Of a stretch of DNA of 46,593 bases, positions 1,189-44,467 are shown piece after piece. Position numbers and translations under genes: made by a program. This DNA comes from Chloroflexota bacterium (lineage in GTDB: Archaea > Iainarchaeota > Iainarchaeia > Iainarchaeales > GCA-2688035): NCBI GenBank assembly GCA_017610335.1, contig JAFCCG010000002.1:1-46593 (forward strand). Reading direction: 5' to 3'. Every line of letters begins with the position of its first letter. The stretch's first letter is position 1. The notes under the pieces are model-generated. The model worked only from the letters and a program-made list of their open reading frames with translations. It had not been told where the DNA came from and searched no databases.

Positions 1189-1860
1189 ATGAAATGCCCG
1201 AATTGTGGAGCAAGATTTTATGAAAAAAAAATAGTAAAAAAAACCTTTACCAAAATAGACAATGTAAAAAATCTTAATGTTGGATGTGGAGAAGAAGAAC
1301 TTGTTAAAGGATGGCTCAATATTGGACTATTTTCAGAAGACAAAATCCCTTATGGTTCAATCATAAGCAAGAACGGAACAAGAGTATTGAATTTTGATTT
1401 AACACAAAATCTTCCATTGCCCGAAAATAGCATAGAGTATGTATATGGAAGCCATTTTATTGAACATTTGAGTTTCAACGACGGTTTAATGTTTTTGAAA
1501 AGAATGCACACAGTTATGAAAAAAGGCGGAGTAATCAGGCAATGTTTTCCAGACCTTGAATTGTGGATTAAAAACTATTATGAAAACAACAATAAATTTT
1601 TTAACGAATACAAGTCAACGTTTTCTTCATGCAAGCAGGCAAAAACCAAGGGACAGATTTTTATGACACAAGTTCATGCTTTTGGCCACAGATGGGGTTA
1701 CGATTTTGATTCAATGAAAGATTCCTTTGAAAGGGCAGGATTTTCAAATGTTGCCAAAAAAAAAGTTCATGAAAGTTTGATACCGGAAATTAAGAAAATA
1801 GAGCCCTGTTGGAGAGGGCGGGTTCTGGAAACGGCTTATGTTGAAGCTAAAAAAGCTTGA
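1189..1860 (+). CDS. SAM-dependent methyltransferase-like protein
   Basis: LNVGCGEE motif I-like sequence, GSHFIEHLS, lone N-terminal CPNCG motif. Confidence 0.7.
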   Translation: MKCPNCGARFYEKKIVKKTFTKIDNVKNLNVGCGEEELVKGWLNIGLFSEDKIPYGSIISKNGTRVLNFDLTQNLPLPENSIEYVYGSHFIEHLSFNDGLMFLKRMHTVMKKGGVIRQCFPDLELWIKNYYENNNKFFNEYKSTFSSCKQAKTKGQIFMTQVHAFGHRWGYDFDSMKDSFERAGFSNVAKKKVHESLIPEIKKIEPCWRGRVLETAYVEAKKA

Positions 1861-2393
1861 AAGGGATTAACATGAAAAAAAGAAAAAGAACTGTTCAGAA
1901 CAAGGCAAACAGCTTTAATGCCATAAGGCATGCCATAAAAGAATTTGAAAAAATTTATGGCAAGAAAGTAAGCCATATAGTGCTATTGCAGCCAACCTCT
2001 CCATTTAGGGAAGCAAGGCATATTAACAAGGCATTAGAAAAGTTTTTTGAATCAAAAGCAAATTCGCTTTCCTCTGTTGTAAAAGCAAAAGATGGAAACA
2101 AATTCCTGGTTTATCTTAAAAAAGGAAAGCCAATAATTCTTTCAACAGGAATGGAAACAATGCAGGAGATTCAAAACGCATTGGAAGTCATTTATAAGAC
2201 GGGCAACAAAAAAATAATCGCTCTGCATTGCACCACCAATTATCCCTGCGACTTAAAGCAAGTGAACTTGAATGCAATGCTTTCGATGAAAGAAGAGCTT
2301 GACTGTCTTGTGGGATTCTCAGACCATAGCTTAAGCATGGTTGTGCCAGGTGCAGCCAGTGCATTTGAAAACAGCTTACAGAAAGCAATTTGA
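1857..2393 (+). pseudogene. In-frame chimera of an N-acylneuraminate cytidylyltransferase (NeuA) internal fragment and an N-acetylneuraminate synthase (NeuB) internal fragment
   Basis: N half HIVLLQPTSPFREARHINKALEKF (NeuA-like); C half GKPIILSTGMETMQEIQNAL...ALHCTTNYPCDLKQVNLNAM...VGFSDHSLS (NeuB-like); both families' other parts are missing. Confidence 0.75.
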
Positions 2394-3787: not shown

Positions 3788-4061
3788 AAGCAATTCTTGC
3801 AGCAAACACTAAACAAAACAGGCGAATGCAAGTTGCCAGAAAAGCCTGAACAAAAAAAAAGATTTTAAACAAGATTGTACCAAATGACTTTAAATAAAAG
3901 CAAAAAACTAGGTAAAAAGCCTTACGCCAAACAAAAGCAAAATTCCAGTAAATTTGACATTGACAATGCTTTCAAATATATCAATGATCAAAATCTTGAA
4001 AAGAAGATTTTGAAAAGACATAGGAACAGGCAATGGGTCAAAAAGAATTGGATGGGAATGA

Positions 4062-6666: not shown

Positions 6667-8220
6667 TCACCGGTTTACCCCATATAAATTTGAACAGCCA
6701 TCTGAAAAAACTTTTACCAACTTGCCCTGACTTTCAAGCTCTTCCAAAACATCTTTGTTCCATGGATTTTTGTAACATGTTTCAGCCAAATGAGTTATGC
6801 CTGATTCATTCAGCTTTAAATAAAGTTGCTCAGATTCCAATCTCATAAAAGTTGTTGGTGAAATTGCTTCTTTGCCGGCAATAAATTCAATCTGTCTTGT
6901 CTTATTTCCATGAATTACAATCTTGCTTTCATCAGGAAGATCTTTAACAAACTCATACAAAGGAACATGATTGTTATAATCCTGATTAAAATGCAGTGCA
7001 TAAAAGCAGGAAAAGACTACAGCATATAATGCTAAAAGTAAGAAAAGTAAGGTGAAAAACTTTTTCCAGGGAAACTTTAATTCCTTAAAAGCATTTGAAA
7101 ACGCTATTCCAAGCAATGGCATAACAGGTAAGATCATCCTTCCCTGCACAAACATTCGGCCTCTTGAAATTACAGGAACAAGTGATATTGCAAAGCAAAC
7201 TGCAAGCAAAACAAACGACATGAACAAAGGGCTTCTTCTGTTACCCAAACCTTTAACAAGCCCGTAAAAAAGTAACATCAGAAAAGGAAAGCTTATCAAA
7301 GTAAAAACAGCAAACACCATTGAAGATGAAATACCAAAAGGCAGTGATTCAAAACCCTGCGGCAAAAAGAACCAAAAGCCGGCATTGAAATTTAAAGGGT
7401 AAAGAAAAATTGATTCAAATGTTGCAGAAACAGTGGATGTTACAAAAAGCTCGGTTACACCAGAATCAATAGCAGAGCTTACGCCGCCTGTTGCTGCAAA
7501 GCTTATGACAAACCAGGCAGAAAAAAGAAGAATTGCTGCAACAACAAAGCAAACAGCCGGAGAAATGCTTTTGAAATCCCTTGAAGGCATTTTTTTCAGC
7601 AGTGCATAAAGGAAAAAAACAAAAAATACAGGAACAAGAATTGTTGCACTTTCCTTTGAAATGGCAAGAAGCATTAATGCAAACGGCATTACAACAATAA
7701 ACTTTTTGCTTCCTGTTTCAAGATAACGCCAGTAAACAAAAAAGCAAAACAACACTGTTACAGAAGCAAGTGTTTCAAGGTAATTTACTCCGCCAAAAAT
7801 AACCAGTAGTGGTTGTATTGCTACAAAAGCAAAGCCAAAAATCCAGTTTTTTGGAAACATTCTTTTCAGCAAAATGAAAGACAAAAGCAATTGCAGAAAT
7901 GAAAAAATAACCGGAAAAATTTTTGCCACGGCAAGAGTAACAGGAATTTGAAACAGAATAAAAAATCCAGAAGTTAAAAAATGGAACAATGGAACAGGCA
8001 TGTCAACAACACCTGCTTTAGGTATTCCCTGAAAAGGAATTGCATAATTTTGCACAATGTATTTTGTAATAGTCAAATGGTACATGCTGTCGGTTAAAGC
8101 TGTATCAGGAAGCATAAAAAGCACGAAAATTCTGGCCAAAATAGCCAAAAGTATTATGGCTGAAAAGATTTTCACTTCAAGGCTTTGCCTAAAAAAACCC
8201 TGAAAAAAATTGAACTGCAT
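6667..8220 (-). CDS. Membrane glycosyltransferase (GT-C fold, ArnT/PMT-like)
   Basis: Long polytopic protein with periplasmic-type C-terminal tail. Confidence 0.65.
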   Translation of the reverse strand: MQFNFFQGFFRQSLEVKIFSAIILLAILARIFVLFMLPDTALTDSMYHLTITKYIVQNYAIPFQGIPKAGVVDMPVPLFHFLTSGFFILFQIPVTLAVAKIFPVIFSFLQLLLSFILLKRMFPKNWIFGFAFVAIQPLLVIFGGVNYLETLASVTVLFCFFVYWRYLETGSKKFIVVMPFALMLLAISKESATILVPVFFVFFLYALLKKMPSRDFKSISPAVCFVVAAILLFSAWFVISFAATGGVSSAIDSGVTELFVTSTVSATFESIFLYPLNFNAGFWFFLPQGFESLPFGISSSMVFAVFTLISFPFLMLLFYGLVKGLGNRRSPLFMSFVLLAVCFAISLVPVISRGRMFVQGRMILPVMPLLGIAFSNAFKELKFPWKKFFTLLFLLLALYAVVFSCFYALHFNQDYNNHVPLYEFVKDLPDESKIVIHGNKTRQIEFIAGKEAISPTTFMRLESEQLYLKLNESGITHLAETCYKNPWNKDVLEELESQGKLVKVFSDGCSNLYGVNR

Positions 8221-8324
8221 TTAATACAGTTAATCCAAAAAGGTATTTAAAGAAAAGGGCAAAGTTATAGTACGTTAATCAAAAAATAACGATTTTAAAA
8301 GAGTTAAAGGCAAAATTGATTACA

Positions 8325-9296
8325 ATGAAAAAAATGTTAAAGCTTGTAGTGCTAATCCCTGCGCTCAACGAGGAAAAAACAATTGCCACAGTAATCAAAG
8401 CAATTCCAAGAAAAATTGAAGGAATTTCAAAAGTACTTGTTTTAGTAGTTGACGACGGAAGCACTGACAGAACAGTACAAAAGGCAAGACTTGCAAAAGC
8501 TAACAAAATCGTTTCACACAAGGGAAACAAAGGTCTCGGAATAGCATTCCAAACAGGACTTGACACAGCCCTTAAAATGGGCGCAAGAATTATTGTAAAC
8601 ATTGACGCAGACGGGCAATTCAATCCAAAAGACATTCCAAAAATCATTGCACCAATTTTACAAGACAAAGCAGATGTTGTCATATGCAGCCGTTTTTTGG
8701 ACAAAAGCCTTGAATCAAAAATGCCAGGAATTAAAAAATTCGGAAACAGATTGTTTACAAAAATAATAAACCTGTTTACAGGAAGCCATTTTACTGATAC
8801 ACAATGCGGCTTCAGAGCATACAGCAAAGAAGCCGCTTTGAGAATGAACCTGTTTGCAAAATTCACTTACACACAGGAAGTTTTAATGGACCTTTCACAG
8901 AAAGGAATGCGAATTGAAGAAGTTGCCTGCAAAGTAGAGGGAAAACGCAACGGTCAAAGCAGAATTGTATCACACTGGTATAGTTATGGAATAAGAGCAT
9001 TGATAATAGTAGTAAGAAGTTTAAGAGACTACAAACCATTACAGTTTTTTGGGATTATCGGCACAATCTTTTTCCTTATAGGAGCAATAAGCGCATTTAT
9101 TCTCTGGATAAGACTTATACTAATCCACCAAATAGACCCATTCATGTGGATTGTTTACACAGACGTTATCTTAATCGTTCTCGGATTCCTTTTGATAATT
9201 CTTGCACTAATCGCAGACCTTGTTGACAGACAAAAAAGAATACAGGAAGAAATCCTTTACAGAATTAAGAAAAAAGAAATTGAAAAAATTCAATAA
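8325..9296 (+). CDS. GT2 glycosyltransferase, dolichol-phosphate-sugar synthase-like with two C-terminal TM helices
   Basis: VLIPALNEEKTI, VVDDGSTD, NIDADGQFNP motifs; hydrophobic C-terminus. Confidence 0.88.
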   Translation: MKKMLKLVVLIPALNEEKTIATVIKAIPRKIEGISKVLVLVVDDGSTDRTVQKARLAKANKIVSHKGNKGLGIAFQTGLDTALKMGARIIVNIDADGQFNPKDIPKIIAPILQDKADVVICSRFLDKSLESKMPGIKKFGNRLFTKIINLFTGSHFTDTQCGFRAYSKEAALRMNLFAKFTYTQEVLMDLSQKGMRIEEVACKVEGKRNGQSRIVSHWYSYGIRALIIVVRSLRDYKPLQFFGIIGTIFFLIGAISAFILWIRLILIHQIDPFMWIVYTDVILIVLGFLLIILALIADLVDRQKRIQEEILYRIKKKEIEKIQ

Positions 9297-9304
9297 ATCA
9301 AAAA
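9134..9304 (+). repeat. Copy A of a 171-bp near-perfect direct repeat (3' end of the GT2 gene)
   Basis: Matches 12108-12278 with one mismatch seen (gcagacctt/gcaaacctt). Confidence 0.97.
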
Positions 9305-9330
9305 AAATAGAATTAAAAAAAAACAAACAA

Positions 9331-9443
9331 GTGTTTCAATTTGATTTGATTTCCAAGATTGTACCAAATTGGTTAAGTTAAAAAAGAAAACCTCTTTGAT
9401 TATTACTTATAATACTCACTTACAATACATTTTTGGAGACCGC
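9331..9443 (+). promoter_or_regulatory. Copy A of a duplicated leader/promoter with ACCAA-A-TTGGT inverted repeat and TATA-like box
   Basis: More than 50 bp identical to the block upstream of 13708 (ccaagattgtaccaaattggttaagttaaaaaagaaaacctctttgattatta). Confidence 0.8.
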
Positions 9444-9533
9444 ATGAATATTGTATGTTTTAACCCCTCCAAAGAATTGCTTAAAACAAGCTTTAGAAGC
9501 GGCTGGAGCCTGCTACAATATATCAGGGGATAA
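9444..9533 (+). pseudogene. Start-plus-end stub of a B12-type radical SAM gene
   Basis: MNIVCFNPSKELLKTSFRSGWSLLQYIRG* joins the first residues (MNIVFLNP) and last residues (NRNLLKTSFRSGWSLLQYIK) of 13708-15120. Confidence 0.9.
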
Positions 9534-9537
9534 AGAG

Positions 9538-10236
9538 ATGGCTAAAAATAATGAAAGTGTTTCCTTTTTTTTCCCAGCATACTATGATAAAAAAAGCCTT
9601 CCAAAACTTGTTTCCGACTTTTATAAAACTCTTCAAAAGACAGGGCGAGATTTTGAAATAATAATAATAGACGATTGTAGCCCTGATGGAACAGGCGCGG
9701 TTGCGAACAAACTTGCCAAAAAATTTCCAAAGGTTAGAGTAATTCACAACCCAAAAAATTTGGGATATGGTGGCGTATTGTTCGCAGGATTTAATTCAGC
9801 AAAAAAAGACCTGGTTGGCTTTACCGACGGGGATGCACAGTATTCTGCAAATGACTTTGGGAAATTTCTGGAAGCAATAAAGGACGCAGATTTTGTCATA
9901 GGATACAGGATGAACAGGGCCGAGGGTGTTAGCAGGATGATTATACAAAATGGCAACAAGGTTGCATTGTTTTTATTTTTTGGCATGCGCTTTAGGGATT
10001 GTGACTGCGGCTTCAAGATGATTAGAAAAAATGTTTTCAAAAAGGTGACACCGCATTCAAAAGGCGGATTTTTCAGCGCGGAAATGATTTACCGTGCAAA
10101 AAAGAACGGTTTGAGAATTAAAGAAGTTCCAGTAACACATTTGAAAAGGCCTTTTGGAAAAAGTACTTTTTTGAGATGGGGCAAAATTTTTGACTTTATT
10201 GAGGATATGCTGAAAATGCGGATTGGAAAACTTTAA
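9538..10236 (+). CDS. GT2 glycosyltransferase (dolichol-phosphate mannosyltransferase-like); track start at 9451 reads through the upstream relic
   Basis: VSFFFPAYYDKKSLP, IIIDDCSPDGTG, GFTDGDAQY motifs. Confidence 0.85.
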   Translation: MAKNNESVSFFFPAYYDKKSLPKLVSDFYKTLQKTGRDFEIIIIDDCSPDGTGAVANKLAKKFPKVRVIHNPKNLGYGGVLFAGFNSAKKDLVGFTDGDAQYSANDFGKFLEAIKDADFVIGYRMNRAEGVSRMIIQNGNKVALFLFFGMRFRDCDCGFKMIRKNVFKKVTPHSKGGFFSAEMIYRAKKNGLRIKEVPVTHLKRPFGKSTFLRWGKIFDFIEDMLKMRIGKL

Positions 10237-10265
10237 TAAAAGGTTTTGCACCAATAAGTTTTGCA

Positions 10266-11183
10266 ATGAGTAATTACCTTGTTTTAGGAGCAAATGGTCT
10301 TATTGGCAGCAGTGTTTCAGAACGACTTGCTATAGAAGGCCATAACATACGAGCCTTTGACCTGTTTCAGGGACATGACAACCTTGTAGGCATTGAATCT
10401 ATTGAAAAAATGAAGGCAGATTATTTGAAGGAAGAAGACTTAAAAAAAGCAGTCAAAGAAATTGAAACAGTGTTTCATTGCATTCATACAACGATTCCAA
10501 GAACAAGTGTTGAAAAACCATTGTTTGACGCTGAAACAAACATTGTTCCAAGTCTCAGACTTTTGGAACAGGCAACAAAGGCAGGCGTGAAAAAAATCGT
10601 TTACATCAGCTCTTTGGCAGTTTATGGAAACCCATTAAACAATCCAATTAAGGAAACTGATGCCATGCAACCAATTTCCCCATATGGTGTGTCAAAGCTT
10701 GCAATTGAAAAGTATTTGGAATTGTTTTACAAAAACCATGGACTGGATTACACAATATTAAGACTTGCACCAACCTACGGTGAAAGGCAAAGAGTTTCTC
10801 CAGGATCAGGAGTTATAGCAAACTTTGTTTTTAATTCACTGCATGAAAAGCCAATTATAATGTACGGAAACGGAAATGCTGAAAGAAACTTTTTGTTTGT
10901 TGAAGACTCTGCAAAAGGCATTTCCAAAGCAGCTTTCAAGAAAACTAAATCAAAAATTTTCAATTTGGGCGGCTCCGAAACTGTAAGTGTGAAGCAATTA
11001 GCAGGGAAGGTGGCAAACGCAACAGGCAAAAAATTGAAAATAAACCATATTGAAAAAAAAAACGAGATTGAAAAGCTTGTATGCGATTTTACCAGGGCAA
11101 AACAAGAACTTTTATGGAAACCAGAAGTCAAGTTGGATGAAGGCATAAAAAGATGTGTTGCAACATTTAAAAAAGGAGAGTAA
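10266..11183 (+). CDS. NAD-dependent epimerase/dehydratase (GalE-like extended SDR)
   Basis: GANGLIGSSV, YISSLAVYG, SPYGVSKLAIEKY motifs. Confidence 0.88.
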   Translation: MSNYLVLGANGLIGSSVSERLAIEGHNIRAFDLFQGHDNLVGIESIEKMKADYLKEEDLKKAVKEIETVFHCIHTTIPRTSVEKPLFDAETNIVPSLRLLEQATKAGVKKIVYISSLAVYGNPLNNPIKETDAMQPISPYGVSKLAIEKYLELFYKNHGLDYTILRLAPTYGERQRVSPGSGVIANFVFNSLHEKPIIMYGNGNAERNFLFVEDSAKGISKAAFKKTKSKIFNLGGSETVSVKQLAGKVANATGKKLKINHIEKKNEIEKLVCDFTRAKQELLWKPEVKLDEGIKRCVATFKKGE

Positions 11184-11188
11184 TTTGA

Positions 11189-11947
11189 ATGGAAAAAAAG
11201 TATGCCTCAAAGTACTTCAATCTGGAAGACGAGCATTGGTGGTTTAAGGCAAGGCGTGACATAATAGGCAGAATAATTAAAGAAATGCCAAAGAAGGCAA
11301 AGATTTTGGATGTCGGATGCAGCGGAGGCGTTTTAATTAATGCGCTCAAGGAAAATGGCTTTTGGGACATCAGCGGAATTGACATCAGCGAAGAAGCCAT
11401 TGAAAAGTGCAAAAAGACAGGGCTAAAAAAAGTAAAAAAAGCCGACGGAGCAAAAACCGGCTTTAAGGCAAACAGCTTCGACCTGATAATTGCTTCAGAT
11501 GTCCTTGAACACATTAAAGAAGAAAAGAAAGCACTAAAAGAATGGAAAAAGATTTTGAAGAAAAACGGAAAACTTCTGGTTTTTGTGCCAGCAGTTGATT
11601 TTTTGTGGAGCGCTCACGATGTGGCAAACGCGCATTGTAGAAGATACAAAAAGAAAAAGCTTTGCAAAGCGTTAAAGGAAGCTGGTTTTGAAGTGTTGCA
11701 ATCAGGCTATTGGAACTTTTTTTTGTTTCTTCCGGTAAGCATTTCAAGAATTGTGCAGAACCTTTTTATTCAACCGGAAAAGAGACATGAAAGGAGAGAC
11801 CAACTGGTAAAAGCTGGTAGAATTTCAAACAGGCTGTTGACTGAATTACTTTTGCTTGAAAACAGGATGTTTTCAAACAAGGTTAACTTTCCTTTTGGAG
11901 TAAGCATTTTTGCACTAGGCAAAAATTTTGAGATTGCACCAAAATAA
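11189..11947 (+). CDS. Class I SAM-dependent methyltransferase
   Basis: ILDVGCSGGVLINAL, FDLIIASDVLEHI motifs. Confidence 0.87.
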   Translation: MEKKYASKYFNLEDEHWWFKARRDIIGRIIKEMPKKAKILDVGCSGGVLINALKENGFWDISGIDISEEAIEKCKKTGLKKVKKADGAKTGFKANSFDLIIASDVLEHIKEEKKALKEWKKILKKNGKLLVFVPAVDFLWSAHDVANAHCRRYKKKKLCKALKEAGFEVLQSGYWNFFLFLPVSISRIVQNLFIQPEKRHERRDQLVKAGRISNRLLTELLLLENRMFSNKVNFPFGVSIFALGKNFEIAPK

Positions 11948-12107
11948 TTTATAATCTGTTGCAAGCCATATTTTAGTATTGGCAAAGCCGGTGAATCAAA
12001 TAAATATTGCCAACAGAAACTATACTTATAGAATTAGTAGAAAACAAACGGAGTCAATTAAATAGCAAAGGCATTAGCTGAAAAGAAAACAGTTCTATTG
12101 GTTCAGC

Positions 12108-12278
12108 AGACCCATTCATGTGGATTGTTTACACAGACGTTATCTTAATCGTTCTCGGATTCCTTTTGATAATTCTTGCACTAATCGCAAACCTTGTTGA
12201 CAGACAAAAAAGAATACAGGAAGAAATCCTTTACAGAATTAAGAAAAAAGAAATTGAAAAAATTCAATAAATCAAAAA
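12108..12278 (+). pseudogene. 3' stub of the GT2 gene at 8325-9296 (copy B of the 171-bp repeat)
   Basis: About 170/171 identical to 9134-9304; encodes (M)WIVYTDVILIVLGFLLIILALIANLVDRQKRIQEEILYRIKKKEIEKIQ*. Confidence 0.95.
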
Positions 12279-12279
12279 C

Positions 12280-13575
12280 TTACGATTTCTTTTTTCTAAA
12301 CATTTGTGAAAAGTATTTTATACCTGAAAGCAAGAGCTTTGGATTTTTTGCAACCCTTTTCAAAACATAACCTGGCCTAAAGTAAACTTCTTTGTAAGCC
12401 TTTTTGTACATTTTTTCAACAAGGTCTTTGTCAAGGTCGCCAAATTCATAATATGCTTTTCCAGAATAACTACCAAAAGATGCCCAATCTTCTACCAAAA
12501 ACTTTCCTTCCTTTTCAACCATTCCATAAAGCTCGGTTCCGGGATAAGGAACTGTCACAGTAAATTGCACAAGATCCAAAGGAAGTTTTTTTGCAAAATC
12601 AATTGTTTCCTGCATTGTTTTCTCATTATCAAAAGGCAATCCAATCATAAAAAATCCAATTGTTTCAATCCCTGCTTCCTTTGCCCATCTTACAGCATTC
12701 TCAACCTGCTCTAACTTAATTCCTTTCCCAACTTTATCTAATACTTTCTGATTTCCTGATTCAACACCAAAAGAAAGCTGATAACATCCTGCTTTTTTCA
12801 TAAGCTTAAGCAAAGGCAAATCCATAGTGTCAACCCTTACACCATTAGGGCAGGTCCAGGCAATTTTTATTTTTCTTTGAATTATTTCCCTGCAAATGTC
12901 AACAGTTCTTGCTCTATTTTGTGAAAAATTATCATCAATAAAAGCAATTTCCTTAACGCCGTACTCTTTTTGTAAATTTTCAATCTCGTCAACCACATTT
13001 TTTGCAGAACGCATTCTGTAAGTCCTTCCAAAAATTCCCTTAAAGCAGTAAACGCAGCCCCATGGACAGCCCCTTGAAGTCATAACCTTAAGGTAAGGAT
13101 GACGCCTTGTTGGTGCAGTATACTTTTCTAAAGGAAGGCCATGCCAATCAGGAAAAGGAATTAAATCAATGTCTTTTACTAAGGTCCCTCGGATTATTTT
13201 TTTCTTTGAAGAAAAAATTTCAAGAACACTGTTTTCTCCTTCTCCAACAACAACTTTATCAGCATGTTCCAATGCTTCTTTTGGCATTATTGAAGCATGC
13301 GGACCTCCAATCACAACCTTTTTTCCACTTGCCCTGTAAGCGTCAGCCATTTTGTAAGCTTGTTTTGCAGTAGGAGTAAAAATTGTTAAACCAACCCACT
13401 CTGTTTCAACAGATTTGGGAGATGTTGACATTCCTGCTGTTTCATCAATAAGCACTGTCCTAATCCTGTTCTTTTCAAGAATTGCTTTCAAATAAGCAAT
13501 GCCCAAAGGCGGGCTTGGATGTGCTACATATACCCCAAATGCAGGATTAATCAGGGTAATTGAATGTTCTACCAT
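12280..13575 (-). CDS. B12-binding-type radical SAM protein
   Basis: N-terminal B12-binding-like domain (VVIGGPHAS) and RGCPWGCVYC; start at MVEHSITLINPAFGVY. Confidence 0.88.
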   Translation of the reverse strand: MVEHSITLINPAFGVYVAHPSPPLGIAYLKAILEKNRIRTVLIDETAGMSTSPKSVETEWVGLTIFTPTAKQAYKMADAYRASGKKVVIGGPHASIMPKEALEHADKVVVGEGENSVLEIFSSKKKIIRGTLVKDIDLIPFPDWHGLPLEKYTAPTRRHPYLKVMTSRGCPWGCVYCFKGIFGRTYRMRSAKNVVDEIENLQKEYGVKEIAFIDDNFSQNRARTVDICREIIQRKIKIAWTCPNGVRVDTMDLPLLKLMKKAGCYQLSFGVESGNQKVLDKVGKGIKLEQVENAVRWAKEAGIETIGFFMIGLPFDNEKTMQETIDFAKKLPLDLVQFTVTVPYPGTELYGMVEKEGKFLVEDWASFGSYSGKAYYEFGDLDKDLVEKMYKKAYKEVYFRPGYVLKRVAKNPKLLLSGIKYFSQMFRKKKS

Positions 13576-13594
13576 AAAAAAAATTAAACCAGCA

Positions 13595-13707
13595 AGTGTT
13601 TTAATTTGGTTTGGTTTCCAAGATTGTACCAAATTGGTTAAGTTAAAAAAGAAAACCTCTTTGATTATTATTTATAGTAATCACTTAGAATTAGTTTTGG
13701 TGACCTT
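13595..13707. promoter_or_regulatory. Divergent intergenic promoter, copy B of the leader repeat, with ACCAA-A-TTGGT inverted repeat
   Basis: Duplicate of 9331-9443; TATA-like tttatagta about 35 nt before the ATG at 13708. Confidence 0.75.
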
Positions 13708-15120
13708 ATGAATATTGTATTTTTGAACCCCCCATTTAAAGGAATATACAACAGAGAAGTCAGGTTTCAGGCAGTTTCGCCACAAAAGGCACTGCACCCG
13801 CCGATAATTTTAGGATATGCCACAGCAGTCTGCCAAAGAAACAAACACAAAGTTGATTTGATTGACGCACCAGCTCTTGAAATTTCAATGGAAGAAACCA
13901 TAAAAAGAATTTCAGATTTCGAACCGGAATATGTTGTAATGCTTACATCAACAGCATCTGTTGAAAGCGATGCAGGTCTTGCAAAAAAAATTGCTGCAGA
14001 AACAGGTGCAAAAACAATTGCAGTAGGAGTTCACGCAACAGCTATTCCGGAAGACACATTAAAACAAGGCTTCGACATTGTTGCAAAAGGAGAATACGAA
14101 TATACAATTGCTGAAATTGCAAAAGGAATTCCTTTGGAAAAAATTGAAGGAATTTCATTCAAAAAAGGCAACAAGTTTATACATAACAAAGCACGTCCGT
14201 TAATCAAAGATCTTGATAATTTACCATACCCTGCAAGAGAATTCCTTCCAAACGAAAAATATTATTCGGCTTTATACAAAAACCCGTTTACTTTTGTGCT
14301 TGCAGGCAGAGGCTGTCCACACCAATGCATTTATTGTGCAGGACCACAACTCATGTCTGGCAGGGGTTATAGAATGAGGTCTCCTGAAAACGTTGTTAAA
14401 GAATTAAAATACCTTAAAGAAAATTTCAAATTCAAAAGCGTGCTGTTTAATGACGATACTTTGAATGTCAACAAAAAATATTTGCTTGAATTATGTGATT
14501 TGATTGTTAAAGAAAAGATTGAAATGCCATGGGTTGCATACAGCAGAGTTGACTCTGTTGATGAAGAGATTGCAAAAGCAATGAAAAGGGCCGGGTGCTT
14601 TCTTGTAAAAATAGGATTTGAATCAGGTTGCGATGAACAACTTAAAACAATGAAGAAAGGACCAAGGGCAACAACAGAACAAGGAAAAAAAGCTGCAAAA
14701 TGTTTTGAGAACGCAGGCATTCAGGTTCATGGAACATTTGTTTTTGGAATGCCTGGCGAAACAGTTGAAAGCATTAAGAAAACCATCAAATATGCAAAAG
14801 AACTTAATATTGACTTTGTACAGTTCAGTGTTGCCCAACCATACCCTGGAACAGAATTTTATGATTTCCTTAAAAGCAAGAACTATTTAAAATTTGAAAA
14901 ATGGTCAGATTACCTTGATTCCGATGGAAAAATCAGACCAATTTTTGAATATCCAAACCTTAGTGCAAAAGACATGCAATACTGGCTAAAACAAGCTTAC
15001 AAAGAATATTATTTAAGACCAAAATATATGTTTAAAGCATTAAAGCAAAGGATTACAAACAGGAATCTTCTAAAAACAAGCTTTAGAAGCGGATGGAGTC
15101 TTTTGCAATATATAAAATAA
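13708..15120 (+). CDS. B12-binding-type radical SAM protein
   Basis: MNIVFLNPPFKG, VGVHATAIPEDTL, GRGCPHQCIYC motifs. Confidence 0.9.
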   Translation: MNIVFLNPPFKGIYNREVRFQAVSPQKALHPPIILGYATAVCQRNKHKVDLIDAPALEISMEETIKRISDFEPEYVVMLTSTASVESDAGLAKKIAAETGAKTIAVGVHATAIPEDTLKQGFDIVAKGEYEYTIAEIAKGIPLEKIEGISFKKGNKFIHNKARPLIKDLDNLPYPAREFLPNEKYYSALYKNPFTFVLAGRGCPHQCIYCAGPQLMSGRGYRMRSPENVVKELKYLKENFKFKSVLFNDDTLNVNKKYLLELCDLIVKEKIEMPWVAYSRVDSVDEEIAKAMKRAGCFLVKIGFESGCDEQLKTMKKGPRATTEQGKKAAKCFENAGIQVHGTFVFGMPGETVESIKKTIKYAKELNIDFVQFSVAQPYPGTEFYDFLKSKNYLKFEKWSDYLDSDGKIRPIFEYPNLSAKDMQYWLKQAYKEYYLRPKYMFKALKQRITNRNLLKTSFRSGWSLLQYIK

Positions 15121-15235
15121 CAGAATTCAAAAAAAAAGCACCAGCTTTAGCACATAAAACAACAGGATTTGAAAAAGCACCAGCTTTAGCATAGGAAATA
15201 AAAGAATTTGAAAAAGCATCAGCTTTTTTGCAAGC
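15121..15235. repeat. ~39-bp-period imperfect tandem repeat (about 3 units) covering the stop codon of the GT4 gene
   Basis: gaatttgaaaaagcaccagctttagca-type units seen three times. Confidence 0.85.
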
Positions 15236-16424
15236 GCAGAATCTTTTGGTATATTTCAAAACCCTTTTCAACAGCAGAATACCATGAAAAGTTTTTTTCA
15301 GTATAATCACGCGCATTCTTTGACATTCTTTTTCTCAAGATCTCATCTTTCAACAAAATATTCAGCTTTTTTGCAATTTCTTTTGGATTTTTTGGCTTTA
15401 CAAGAAATCCATTAAAGCCGTCCTTTACAACATCAATAAGACCACCAACTTTTGAAACAATAACCGGTTTACCACAAGCAGTTGCTTCTAGTGCAACAAT
15501 TCCCAAAGTTTCTGTTTCACCACGCGAATCAACAATTGAAGGAATTACAACAATATCTGCTTCATTCATCCACAAAGGCACATCAGCATTCTGCACCTCA
15601 CCAATAAAAATTATTTTGTCACTCAACCCTTTGCCCTTAACCATTTGCTTTAACTCTTTTTCTAAAGGTCCATGCCCAGCAATAACACATACCGCACCAT
15701 CTGATTTCACATAATGCATTGCTTCAATAAGGTAAACAAAACCCTTTTTTTCAACAAACCTGCCAATTGAAAAAATAATTTTTTTATTATTTTCAACGCC
15801 AATTTTTTTCCTAAGCCCAACTCTCGTCATTACCTTAAACTTTTTTTCATCAATGCTTGGCGAAACAATTCCAAAATCCTTAAGCTTTACAACAGCTTTT
15901 GCTTTTTCAAGAGTGTAAGAAGAATTAAACATTACAAAATCGCAGTTTCGCAACACAAACTTGGTCAAAGCCGTTTGAATAAAATTTCCAAAGACCATTC
16001 TGTGAACCCAAAGCACAACAGGCTTGCCAGTAAGCTTTTTTAAAATAATTCCAACAAGCCCGCTTGGAATCCACTGCGCATGAATTATATTTTTGCCCCT
16101 TGAATTTCCTAAAGCCTTGAGAAAAAAAGAAAGCATAAAAAAAGGAAACTGTATTTTTGCCACCAGGCTATTGGCAAGATTAAAAGCAACCCCGCCATGA
16201 TAGGCAATCCTCTGCCATTGCTTTGGAAAAAAATACTGAAAACGGTGAATTCTTATGCCGTCAACTTCTTCAAAGCCAAGGCTGTTTTCCCTGTTATGTG
16301 GAACAACAACATCAATGCCAACGCCTTTTTTTACAAGCCTTGACATAAACTCGTAATTGAAACTGTAATCGCCCTTAAAGCGAAGGAAAGATGTTACAAG
16401 CTGCAGTACTTTTGGTTCAGCCAT
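15219..16424 (-). CDS. Family 4 glycosyltransferase
   Basis: SIGRFVEKKGFVYLIEA, IAGHGPLEKEL, ETLGIVALEATACGKPVI motifs. Confidence 0.92.
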   Translation of the reverse strand: MAEPKVLQLVTSFLRFKGDYSFNYEFMSRLVKKGVGIDVVVPHNRENSLGFEEVDGIRIHRFQYFFPKQWQRIAYHGGVAFNLANSLVAKIQFPFFMLSFFLKALGNSRGKNIIHAQWIPSGLVGIILKKLTGKPVVLWVHRMVFGNFIQTALTKFVLRNCDFVMFNSSYTLEKAKAVVKLKDFGIVSPSIDEKKFKVMTRVGLRKKIGVENNKKIIFSIGRFVEKKGFVYLIEAMHYVKSDGAVCVIAGHGPLEKELKQMVKGKGLSDKIIFIGEVQNADVPLWMNEADIVVIPSIVDSRGETETLGIVALEATACGKPVIVSKVGGLIDVVKDGFNGFLVKPKNPKEIAKKLNILLKDEILRKRMSKNARDYTEKNFSWYSAVEKGFEIYQKILRLQKS

Positions 16425-16546
16425 TAATTAAATAAAACAACAATCCAAATTTAAAAAGACTTGAAAAACCATGCAATGATTGCACCAAAGAAAGAAAAAG
16501 CTATATAAGCATTTTTGCAGCCGTTTGCAAATCAGCCTCTTTATTA

Positions 16547-43219: not shown

Positions 43220-44467
43220 ATGCAAGCTGTAAAAACTGTTAAGCTGAAGCTATTTAAGCCAACTAGGGTAAAGCGACAGTTGTTGTTTCTTTTGCAAGAG
43301 AATCAGCAACTGTTGAATAATTATATTGGTTTGATTGAGAAGCATAGTACAACCAACAAGTCGTTGTTGCACAGTCTTAGTTACAGTAGACTTCGTTCAG
43401 ACTATAAATTACCTTCTGCGATTGTGCAGAGTGCAAGGGATAAGGCAGTAGAGGCCTATAAGAGCTATAAAGCAAAGAAACGTAGAGGCGAAAAGTCTAG
43501 TAAACCTTGTTTTTCTGATCGTGTCCCTGTGCGACTTGATAAGAGAACATTTTCAGTGATTGAAACAGACAACAGGTTTAGGTATTTTGCTTCAATAGCA
43601 ACTGTTGAAGGCAGAGTTTTTGTTCCATTGCTTGGCCAACGTTACCAGTACAAGTATTTAGCAAGGTTGTTTAAAGGCGAGTTACAGCAAGGAACAGCAG
43701 AACTGCTACTAAAAGGAAACGAGTTTTACATCTATCTTGCAGTGAAAAAAGAGTTAAGCGTTCCTCGGCCTGATGCTAGCTTTACTCCTATTGGTATCGA
43801 CCTTGGCTTGAATAATCTCTTAACTTCTGTGATTTTGAGAGACAAGCCTTCTGGAGCAAAGTTTTTCAGTGGAAAGCCTGCATTAAAGATGAGAAAGCAT
43901 TTTTCCACATTCAGGACAAGCCTTGGGAAAGCTAAACTATTATGGCGAATCAAGAAAAGCAAGGAAAAAGAGTCAAGGTGCATGCGGGACATAAACCACA
44001 AGGCAAGCACAGCAATAATAAAACAAGCACTAACAGTCGAAAACCCAGTGATTATTTTAGAGAGACTGCGAGGAATAAGGCGAAAAGCAAAGTCTGGCAA
44101 AAAGCTTAATAGGATGCTGCACAGTTGGGCTTTTGCACAACTACAAAGTTTCATCGAATACAAAGCCAACTGGAATGGCATCCCAGTTGTGTATGTAAAC
44201 CCTGAGTTCACTTCGCAGCGTTGCAGTGTGTGTGGTTACACCGATAAAGCAAATAGGAAAGGAAATTCTTTTGTTTGCAGCAAATGTGGCTATCAACTGA
44301 ATGCAGACCTAAATGCAGCAATCAATATAGCAAAACAACATAAGAACTTTGCATTTGGCTATATGCTAGATGCACTGGGCGATGTGGCAACGCCCTTAAC
44401 CCCTGCAGTGAACAAAAAGGAACATAAAATGGTTTCAGTAGTCGACAGGGGAAGCCCATGCTTTTAG
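43220..44467 (+). mobile_element. tnpB: TnpB (IS200/IS605-family OrfB, RNA-guided nuclease family), no TnpA nearby
   Basis: RuvC-like GIDLGLNNL, ILERLRGIRR, NADLNAAINIA; zinc finger CSVCGYTDKANRKGNSFVCSKCGY. Confidence 0.95.

Follow-up and report, generated by a model that had tools for sequence, protein, structure and literature searches.

The window, i.e. the whole stretch of 46,593 bp that was analysed (contig JAFCCG010000002.1), carries a surface-glycan gene cluster of an uncultured archaeon. The genome that holds it, G000, is a draft of 95 contigs (1.29 Mb, 87% complete), in which the window is contig 72. We investigated the segment 8325-15120, where parts of a unit made of a glycosyltransferase gene (GT2) and two divergent radical S-adenosylmethionine (SAM) genes (RS1 and RS2) occur twice, on either side of three other genes. 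This arrangement had been read, in an initial annotation, as a segmental duplication with complementary gene loss between the two copies. The comparisons were made with genomes of the same order (75 in the search for a donor), of which G002 and G001 belong to the same genus as G000.

GT2 (8328-9296, plus strand, Pfam PF00535) is the functional copy of a dolichyl-phosphate-sugar-synthase-like glycosyltransferase gene, with orthologues of 63-89% identity in the relatives. Its 3′ end forms the left copy of a 171-bp repeat (9134-9304, plus strand), which is 86% identical to G002. It is followed by a diverged leader/promoter region (copy A, 9315-9443, plus strand, with TTGTACCAAATTGGTTAA at 9359-9376) and by an RS2 stub (9444-9533, plus strand), a 29-residue in-frame open reading frame (ORF) that joins about 8 first and about 19 last RS2 codons. 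Leader A now precedes GT2b, a second glycosyltransferase gene (9538-10236, PF00535), itself followed by SDR, coding for a NAD-dependent sugar epimerase/dehydratase (10266-11183, PF01370), and MT, coding for a SAM-dependent methyltransferase (11189-11947, PF13489), all on the plus strand. After a 160-bp spacer (11948-12107) comes the right copy of the 171-bp repeat (12108-12278, plus strand), an orphan 3′ fragment of GT2. RS1 (12280-13575, minus strand) and RS2 (13708-15120, plus strand, HpnJ-like) encode B12-binding radical SAM proteins, both with PF02310 (B12-binding) and PF04055 (radical SAM) above the gathering score. Between them lies the native bidirectional leader (copy B, 13576-13707, plus strand), with TTGTACCAAATTGGTTAA at 13624-13641 and a GGTGA ribosome-binding site. 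The RS1 orthologue in G002 is 90.5% identical, and RS2 orthologues in 13 relatives are 66-93% identical (93% in G002, 76% in G001).

The two GT2 ends, 9134-9304 and 12108-12278, are identical at 170 of 171 positions. The sole difference, at position 9216, corresponds to D297N in the fragment, D297 being invariant in 11 orthologues. The leaders match over 9315-9433 and 13580-13698 with 88% identity, and two further pairs, both at 86%, cover the ribosome-binding region with the RS2 start (9431-9467 and 13695-13731) and the RS2 end (9480-9523 and 15070-15113). All repeat pieces of the initial annotation were thus recovered, exact to the base or nearly so. In the whole 1.29-Mb genome the leader is found in two places only (second match E=6e-49), and the fragment 12108-12278 is the only near-identical extra piece of GT2 (93% at the protein level, E=2e-26); therefore, these matches are not due to chance. 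A short similarity between 9307-9328 and 12028-12049 was set aside as an A-rich chance match.

Leader A shares an identical core of more than 50 bp with leader B and with G002. The stub translates as MNIVCFNPSKELLKTSFRSGWSLLQYIRG followed by a stop and keeps one reading frame between the start and the end of RS2; GT2b begins 4 bp 3′ of this stop codon, and the 3′ end of the stub matches G001, G011, copy B of G000 and G002. RS1 most likely starts with the ATG at 13575, in which case the entire gene, from start to stop, is missing from copy A. The description of the two copies previously given is correct in its content: a whole GT2, no RS1, the leader and a start-plus-end RS2 stub in copy A, and the 171-bp GT2 end with full RS1 and RS2 in copy B, the genes GT2b, SDR and MT standing between them.

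The ancestral unit proposed there, GT2 followed by a reverse RS1, a leader and a forward RS2, is also borne out. In both G002 and G001 it is present intact and once, in the order GT39 (reverse), GT2 (forward), RS1 (reverse), RS2 (forward). When positions 9305-12278 were removed in silico, the joined flanks aligned with G002 from GT2 through its stop codon as far as the RS1 stop, and the junction showed no gap. This gapless alignment indicates that the ancestral locus is intact in the right part of the window, and that 9305-12278 (plus strand; equivalently 9134-12107) is an addition of 2,974 bp, absent from the relatives, with a 171-bp repeat of the GT2 end and its right junction at 12107/12108. 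Synteny in related genomes, which had been suggested as a check, thus yielded the unduplicated unit; a two-copy state was seen in no relative, as only single units were found among those searched, and neither a second leader nor an extra GT2 fragment was present in any other genome searched. A GT2 alignment, used against the genome collection, returned mainly distant paralogues, together with two named relatives.

The left edge of the foreign DNA coincides with the right edge of the 99.4% repeat, as predicted by one insertion. G002 thus shows the collinear empty site, and the insert is bordered by direct repeats that are nearly identical. We consider it probable, from these comparisons of sequence, that a cassette of 2,974 bp was recently inserted into an intact unit, and that the ancestral locus was never duplicated as a block. 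The GT2 piece of copy B, previously taken for a decayed gene, is better read as the edge fragment of this insertion.

A 171-bp near-identical repeat is also a classical collapse point in assemblies, and G000 is a draft in 95 contigs. The 2,974-bp unit might then be a circle or a minority variant that was merged with empty-site chromosomes through the repeat, since a circle plus an empty site gives the same sequence paths. However, the mismatch at 9216 splits the repeat into identical tracts of no more than 82 and 88 bp, which ordinary reads can phase, and the assembly shows the phase that biology would predict, with D297 in the full GT2 and N297 next to RS1. A plain misassembly is therefore unlikely. 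A single-copy empty site of the form GT2-repeat-RS1 could not give both residues, and the junctions would be real regardless. Such a mixture of strains or assembly paths appears very improbable.

The duplicated parts are not of the same age. The GT2 tails differ by 0.6% (1/171), whereas leader plus stub differ by 13% (21/158; Fisher p=1.5e-6), which speaks against the single segmental duplication initially put forward. Each GT2 tail shows 23-24 differences from G002 over its 171 positions; between G000 and G002, GT2 is 12-14% different and the leader region about 6%. For the leader and RS2 ends, copy B presents 9 differences in 158 from G002, compared to 21 between copies A and B. From these distances, the copying of the GT2 tail is much more recent than the split of G000 and G002, which does not hold for the leader. 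In a maximum-likelihood tree of the leader and RS2 ends, copy A falls outside the pair formed by copy B and G002 (support 63), and the 3′ end of the stub shares 39/45 positions with G001 and 37/45 with the RS2 of G000 itself. Most simply, these sequences are explained if the cassette brought leader and stub with it from a related lineage.

Near-identical GT2 tails would also be expected if two alleles of one species, GT2-leader′-stub-GT2b-SDR-MT and GT2-RS1-leader-RS2, had been fused head to tail by an illegitimate crossover, and alternative contents of this slot are indeed seen across the genus. Nevertheless, recombination would have to end precisely at the GT2 stop to place 0.6% beside 13% divergence, and no GT2-leader′-stub allele lacking RS1 and RS2 downstream is known. 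We regard this fusion as quite improbable.

The same genes are lost in relatives that have a single copy of the locus. G004 lacks RS1 at this place, the leader and RS2 standing directly 3′ of GT2; GT2 next to the leader without RS1 is also the layout of copy A. The gene order of the G004 contig C52 was also found in JAFCCH010000010.1 (L136, 45,016 bp), from a metagenome-assembled genome labelled Thaumarchaeota; given this gene order and a nearest other named relative that is Candidatus Diapherotrites, the label looks wrong. In G013, RS1 is reduced to its first ~56 and last ~55 residues, and G005 keeps the last 67 RS1 residues and has no RS2 at the locus. The RS1 end-fragments themselves, at 8897-9232 of L026 (G013) and 5263-5463 of L133 (G005), are independent leftovers of the loss of the gene body, one of them with in-frame stops. 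G006 and G003 have neither RS1 nor RS2 at the locus, and G009 and G008 present several kb inserted between the two genes. The locus is a region of turnover, which erodes alike in the single-copy relatives. The loss of RS1 or RS2 bodies, or of both, in the single-copy genomes G004, G013 and G005 means that redundancy, or a backup copy, is unnecessary to explain the complementarity seen in the window, and the proposed duplication with complementary loss between copies is not supported.

In a refined form of the initial reading, the whole unit would have been duplicated in tandem long ago. Copy A would then have lost RS1 and the body of RS2, and copy B most of GT2; GT2b, SDR and MT would have been inserted between the copies, and a recent gene conversion would have restored the identity of the two GT2 tails. 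The parts present in both flanks are in the right order, the common GT2 tract stops exactly at the end of homology, as conversion would yield, and copies A and B as sisters are not significantly rejected (approximately unbiased test, p=0.12). This history needs at least five events, compared to one or two for an insertion, and includes an insertion of the three genes regardless. It also has to deal with the disagreement between the GT2 and leader identities, with a copy B fragment that must survive as exactly one conversion tract, with the lack of any relative with two units, and with the losses of RS1 and RS2 without duplication in G004, G005 and G013. We therefore hold the old duplication to be unlikely.

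In the favoured explanation, the recent insertion of a cassette, the incoming DNA would comprise the diverged RS2 leader, the RS2 stub, GT2b, SDR, MT and the 160-bp spacer, and would have entered just 3′ of the GT2 stop, leaving 171 bp of the GT2 3′ end at either edge. The likely route would be either pairing of homologous DNA at the GT2 end combined with a non-homologous join on the other side (homology-facilitated illegitimate recombination), or one crossover with a circular molecule that carried the GT2 tail. The leader and stub of the cassette would go back to a different version of the locus, which had already lost RS1 and the RS2 body in a related lineage, so that, in the best reading, the decay of the stub preceded the insertion event or was separate from it. 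In their new place they probably give a promoter and a coupled translation start to GT2b-SDR-MT. These three genes would add one sugar and a modification to a lipid-linked or surface glycan, the RS1/RS2 pair staying intact. What appears as a segmental duplication looks mostly like ordinary cassette shuffling.

Several points weigh against this explanation. The GT2 tails could have been made alike by gene conversion, and the tree test, as mentioned, leaves the sister grouping of copies A and B standing at p=0.12. No donor with leader′-stub-GT2b-SDR-MT was found in the 75 genomes of the order. The base composition of the cassette is like that of its surroundings, so that the argument for a foreign origin is a phylogenetic one. 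The illegitimate joining is assumed from bacterial analogy (PMC5361080; PMC3240628).

The closest relatives of GT2b are in G011 (62%), G029 (59%) and G007 (59%), and the best ones among the genomes searched reach 57% for SDR and 40% for MT, within the order. In G011 (contig C26), a GT2b homologue and an SDR gene are adjacent in a different setting, which indicates that the pair behaves as a module; the three-gene order GT2b-SDR-MT was not found in the relatives, where only GT2b-SDR, in G011, was seen. The 160-bp spacer has no strong match in G000 or in the 75 genomes, and a search of the same genomes for the leader-stub junction gave only RS2 leaders and ends. In its gene content, the insert does not look like a transposon or integron cassette: its genes (GT2b, SDR and MT only) include no transposase or integrase, and the 171-bp repeat is GT2 coding sequence.

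A short conserved element, TTGTACCAA, precedes RS2 in most of the family, located 69-85 bp 5′ of its start in G000 (both copies), G002, G001, G004, G013, G009, G011, G015 and G008. G001 has it twice, one copy being 112 bp before RS2. It was not seen before RS2 in G007, G012, G016, G017 and G019. Outside the element, most of the leaders that bear it share only about half of their positions. Downstream of the element there is usually a TTAA..TTAATAAA stretch, which, by its sequence, could be a TATA box. In the relatives, the element is at 4048 and 4089 of L024, 13240 of L025, 9862 of L026, 7726 of L027, 2260 of L028, 4897 of L029, 9871 of L030 and 5198 of L133. The 18-base form is exact in G000 only at the two leaders (9359-9376 and 13624-13641), and a third site with one mismatch, 3875-3892, lies within the glycan cluster. 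A genome-wide operator in G000 was not retained, a loose pattern giving 44 matches, hardly above the 35 of a reversed control. The count of TTGTACCAA is also within chance composition, as one shuffled motif reached 18 occurrences compared to 11; the argument for the element is thus its conserved position, which makes an operator or an upstream promoter element possible. No Rfam family was found within 7500-16500.

TTGTACCAA also stands 5′ of other glycosyltransferase genes, namely GT2b in G000 and a GT4 gene in G005, where the site is retained 81 bp before the gene; in copy A of G000 the translation start is retained along with it. One may imagine that the RS1/RS2 intergenic element (TTGTACCAA, promoter and RS2 start) acts as a recurrent socket, RS2 bodies being lost and the element kept, so that new glycan genes (the GT2b operon in copy A of G000, GT4 in G005) would come under RS2 control, and that the 171-bp repeats would permit loss of the cassette, making the surface glycan switchable. 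We find this proposal rather unlikely.

Outside the unit, the 5′ neighbour of GT2 is a membrane protein gene (6667-8220, minus strand) with no Pfam match, which we take to be GT39-like from general resemblance. The 3′ neighbour of RS2 is a GT4 gene (15219-16424, minus strand); between them, at 15133-15210, a 39-bp unit is present as two imperfect tandem copies (85%) and a partial third. A short ORF at 1857-2393 (plus strand) contains only the middle of NeuB (PF03102, positions 110-192 of 241); the part ahead of it, with no Pfam match, presumably resembles a CMP-sugar synthetase. It looks like two truncated nonulosonate genes joined in frame, a second stub-like relic in the cluster. A TnpB-like gene at 43220-44467 (plus strand) has a Cas12f1-like_TNB domain and a weak IS605 OrfB match, with no obvious TnpA adjacent in the ORF list.

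The apparent duplication with reciprocal loss is therefore better read as accretion of a cassette. The locus documents fast gene turnover, with gene stubs as its traces, in the surface glycan of an uncultured archaeal lineage whose named relative is Candidatus Diapherotrites. The position of TTGTACCAA before B12-dependent radical SAM genes offers a regulatory site that can be tested, in a group for which genetics hardly exist.

The closest published parallel is found in the type VI secretion system effector-immunity clusters and the Rhs loci of Vibrio, where modules are inserted by homology-facilitated illegitimate recombination (PMC5361080; PMC3240628). These modules enter beside a homologous anchor and leave orphan genes or displaced 3′ fragments downstream (PMC5361080). 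As in Vibrio, a new module lies here beside a conserved anchor, in an array that resembles a partial duplication. In contrast, the genes are those of an archaeal surface glycan, the fragment copies a still-intact upstream gene instead of a displaced one, and the mechanism is proposed by analogy.

RS2 resembles the HpnJ family (TIGR03471), with which it aligns over its whole length (1.6e-104), but its 350 bits are below the cut-off of 577.6, and its setting is a glycan cluster with no hopanoid genes noted. In the same way, GT2 is below the cut-off of the NCBIfam model AglJ (TIGR04182; 1e-41, 143 bits compared to 325), and consequently no substrate is claimed for either protein.

Variable surface-polysaccharide loci, such as bacterial capsule and O-antigen loci and archaeal Agl clusters, combine glycosyltransferases, flippases and nucleotide-sugar genes, with conserved flanks, a variable middle and gene remnants. 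Unlike these loci, the present one holds a pair of divergent B12-dependent radical SAM genes with one common regulatory interval.

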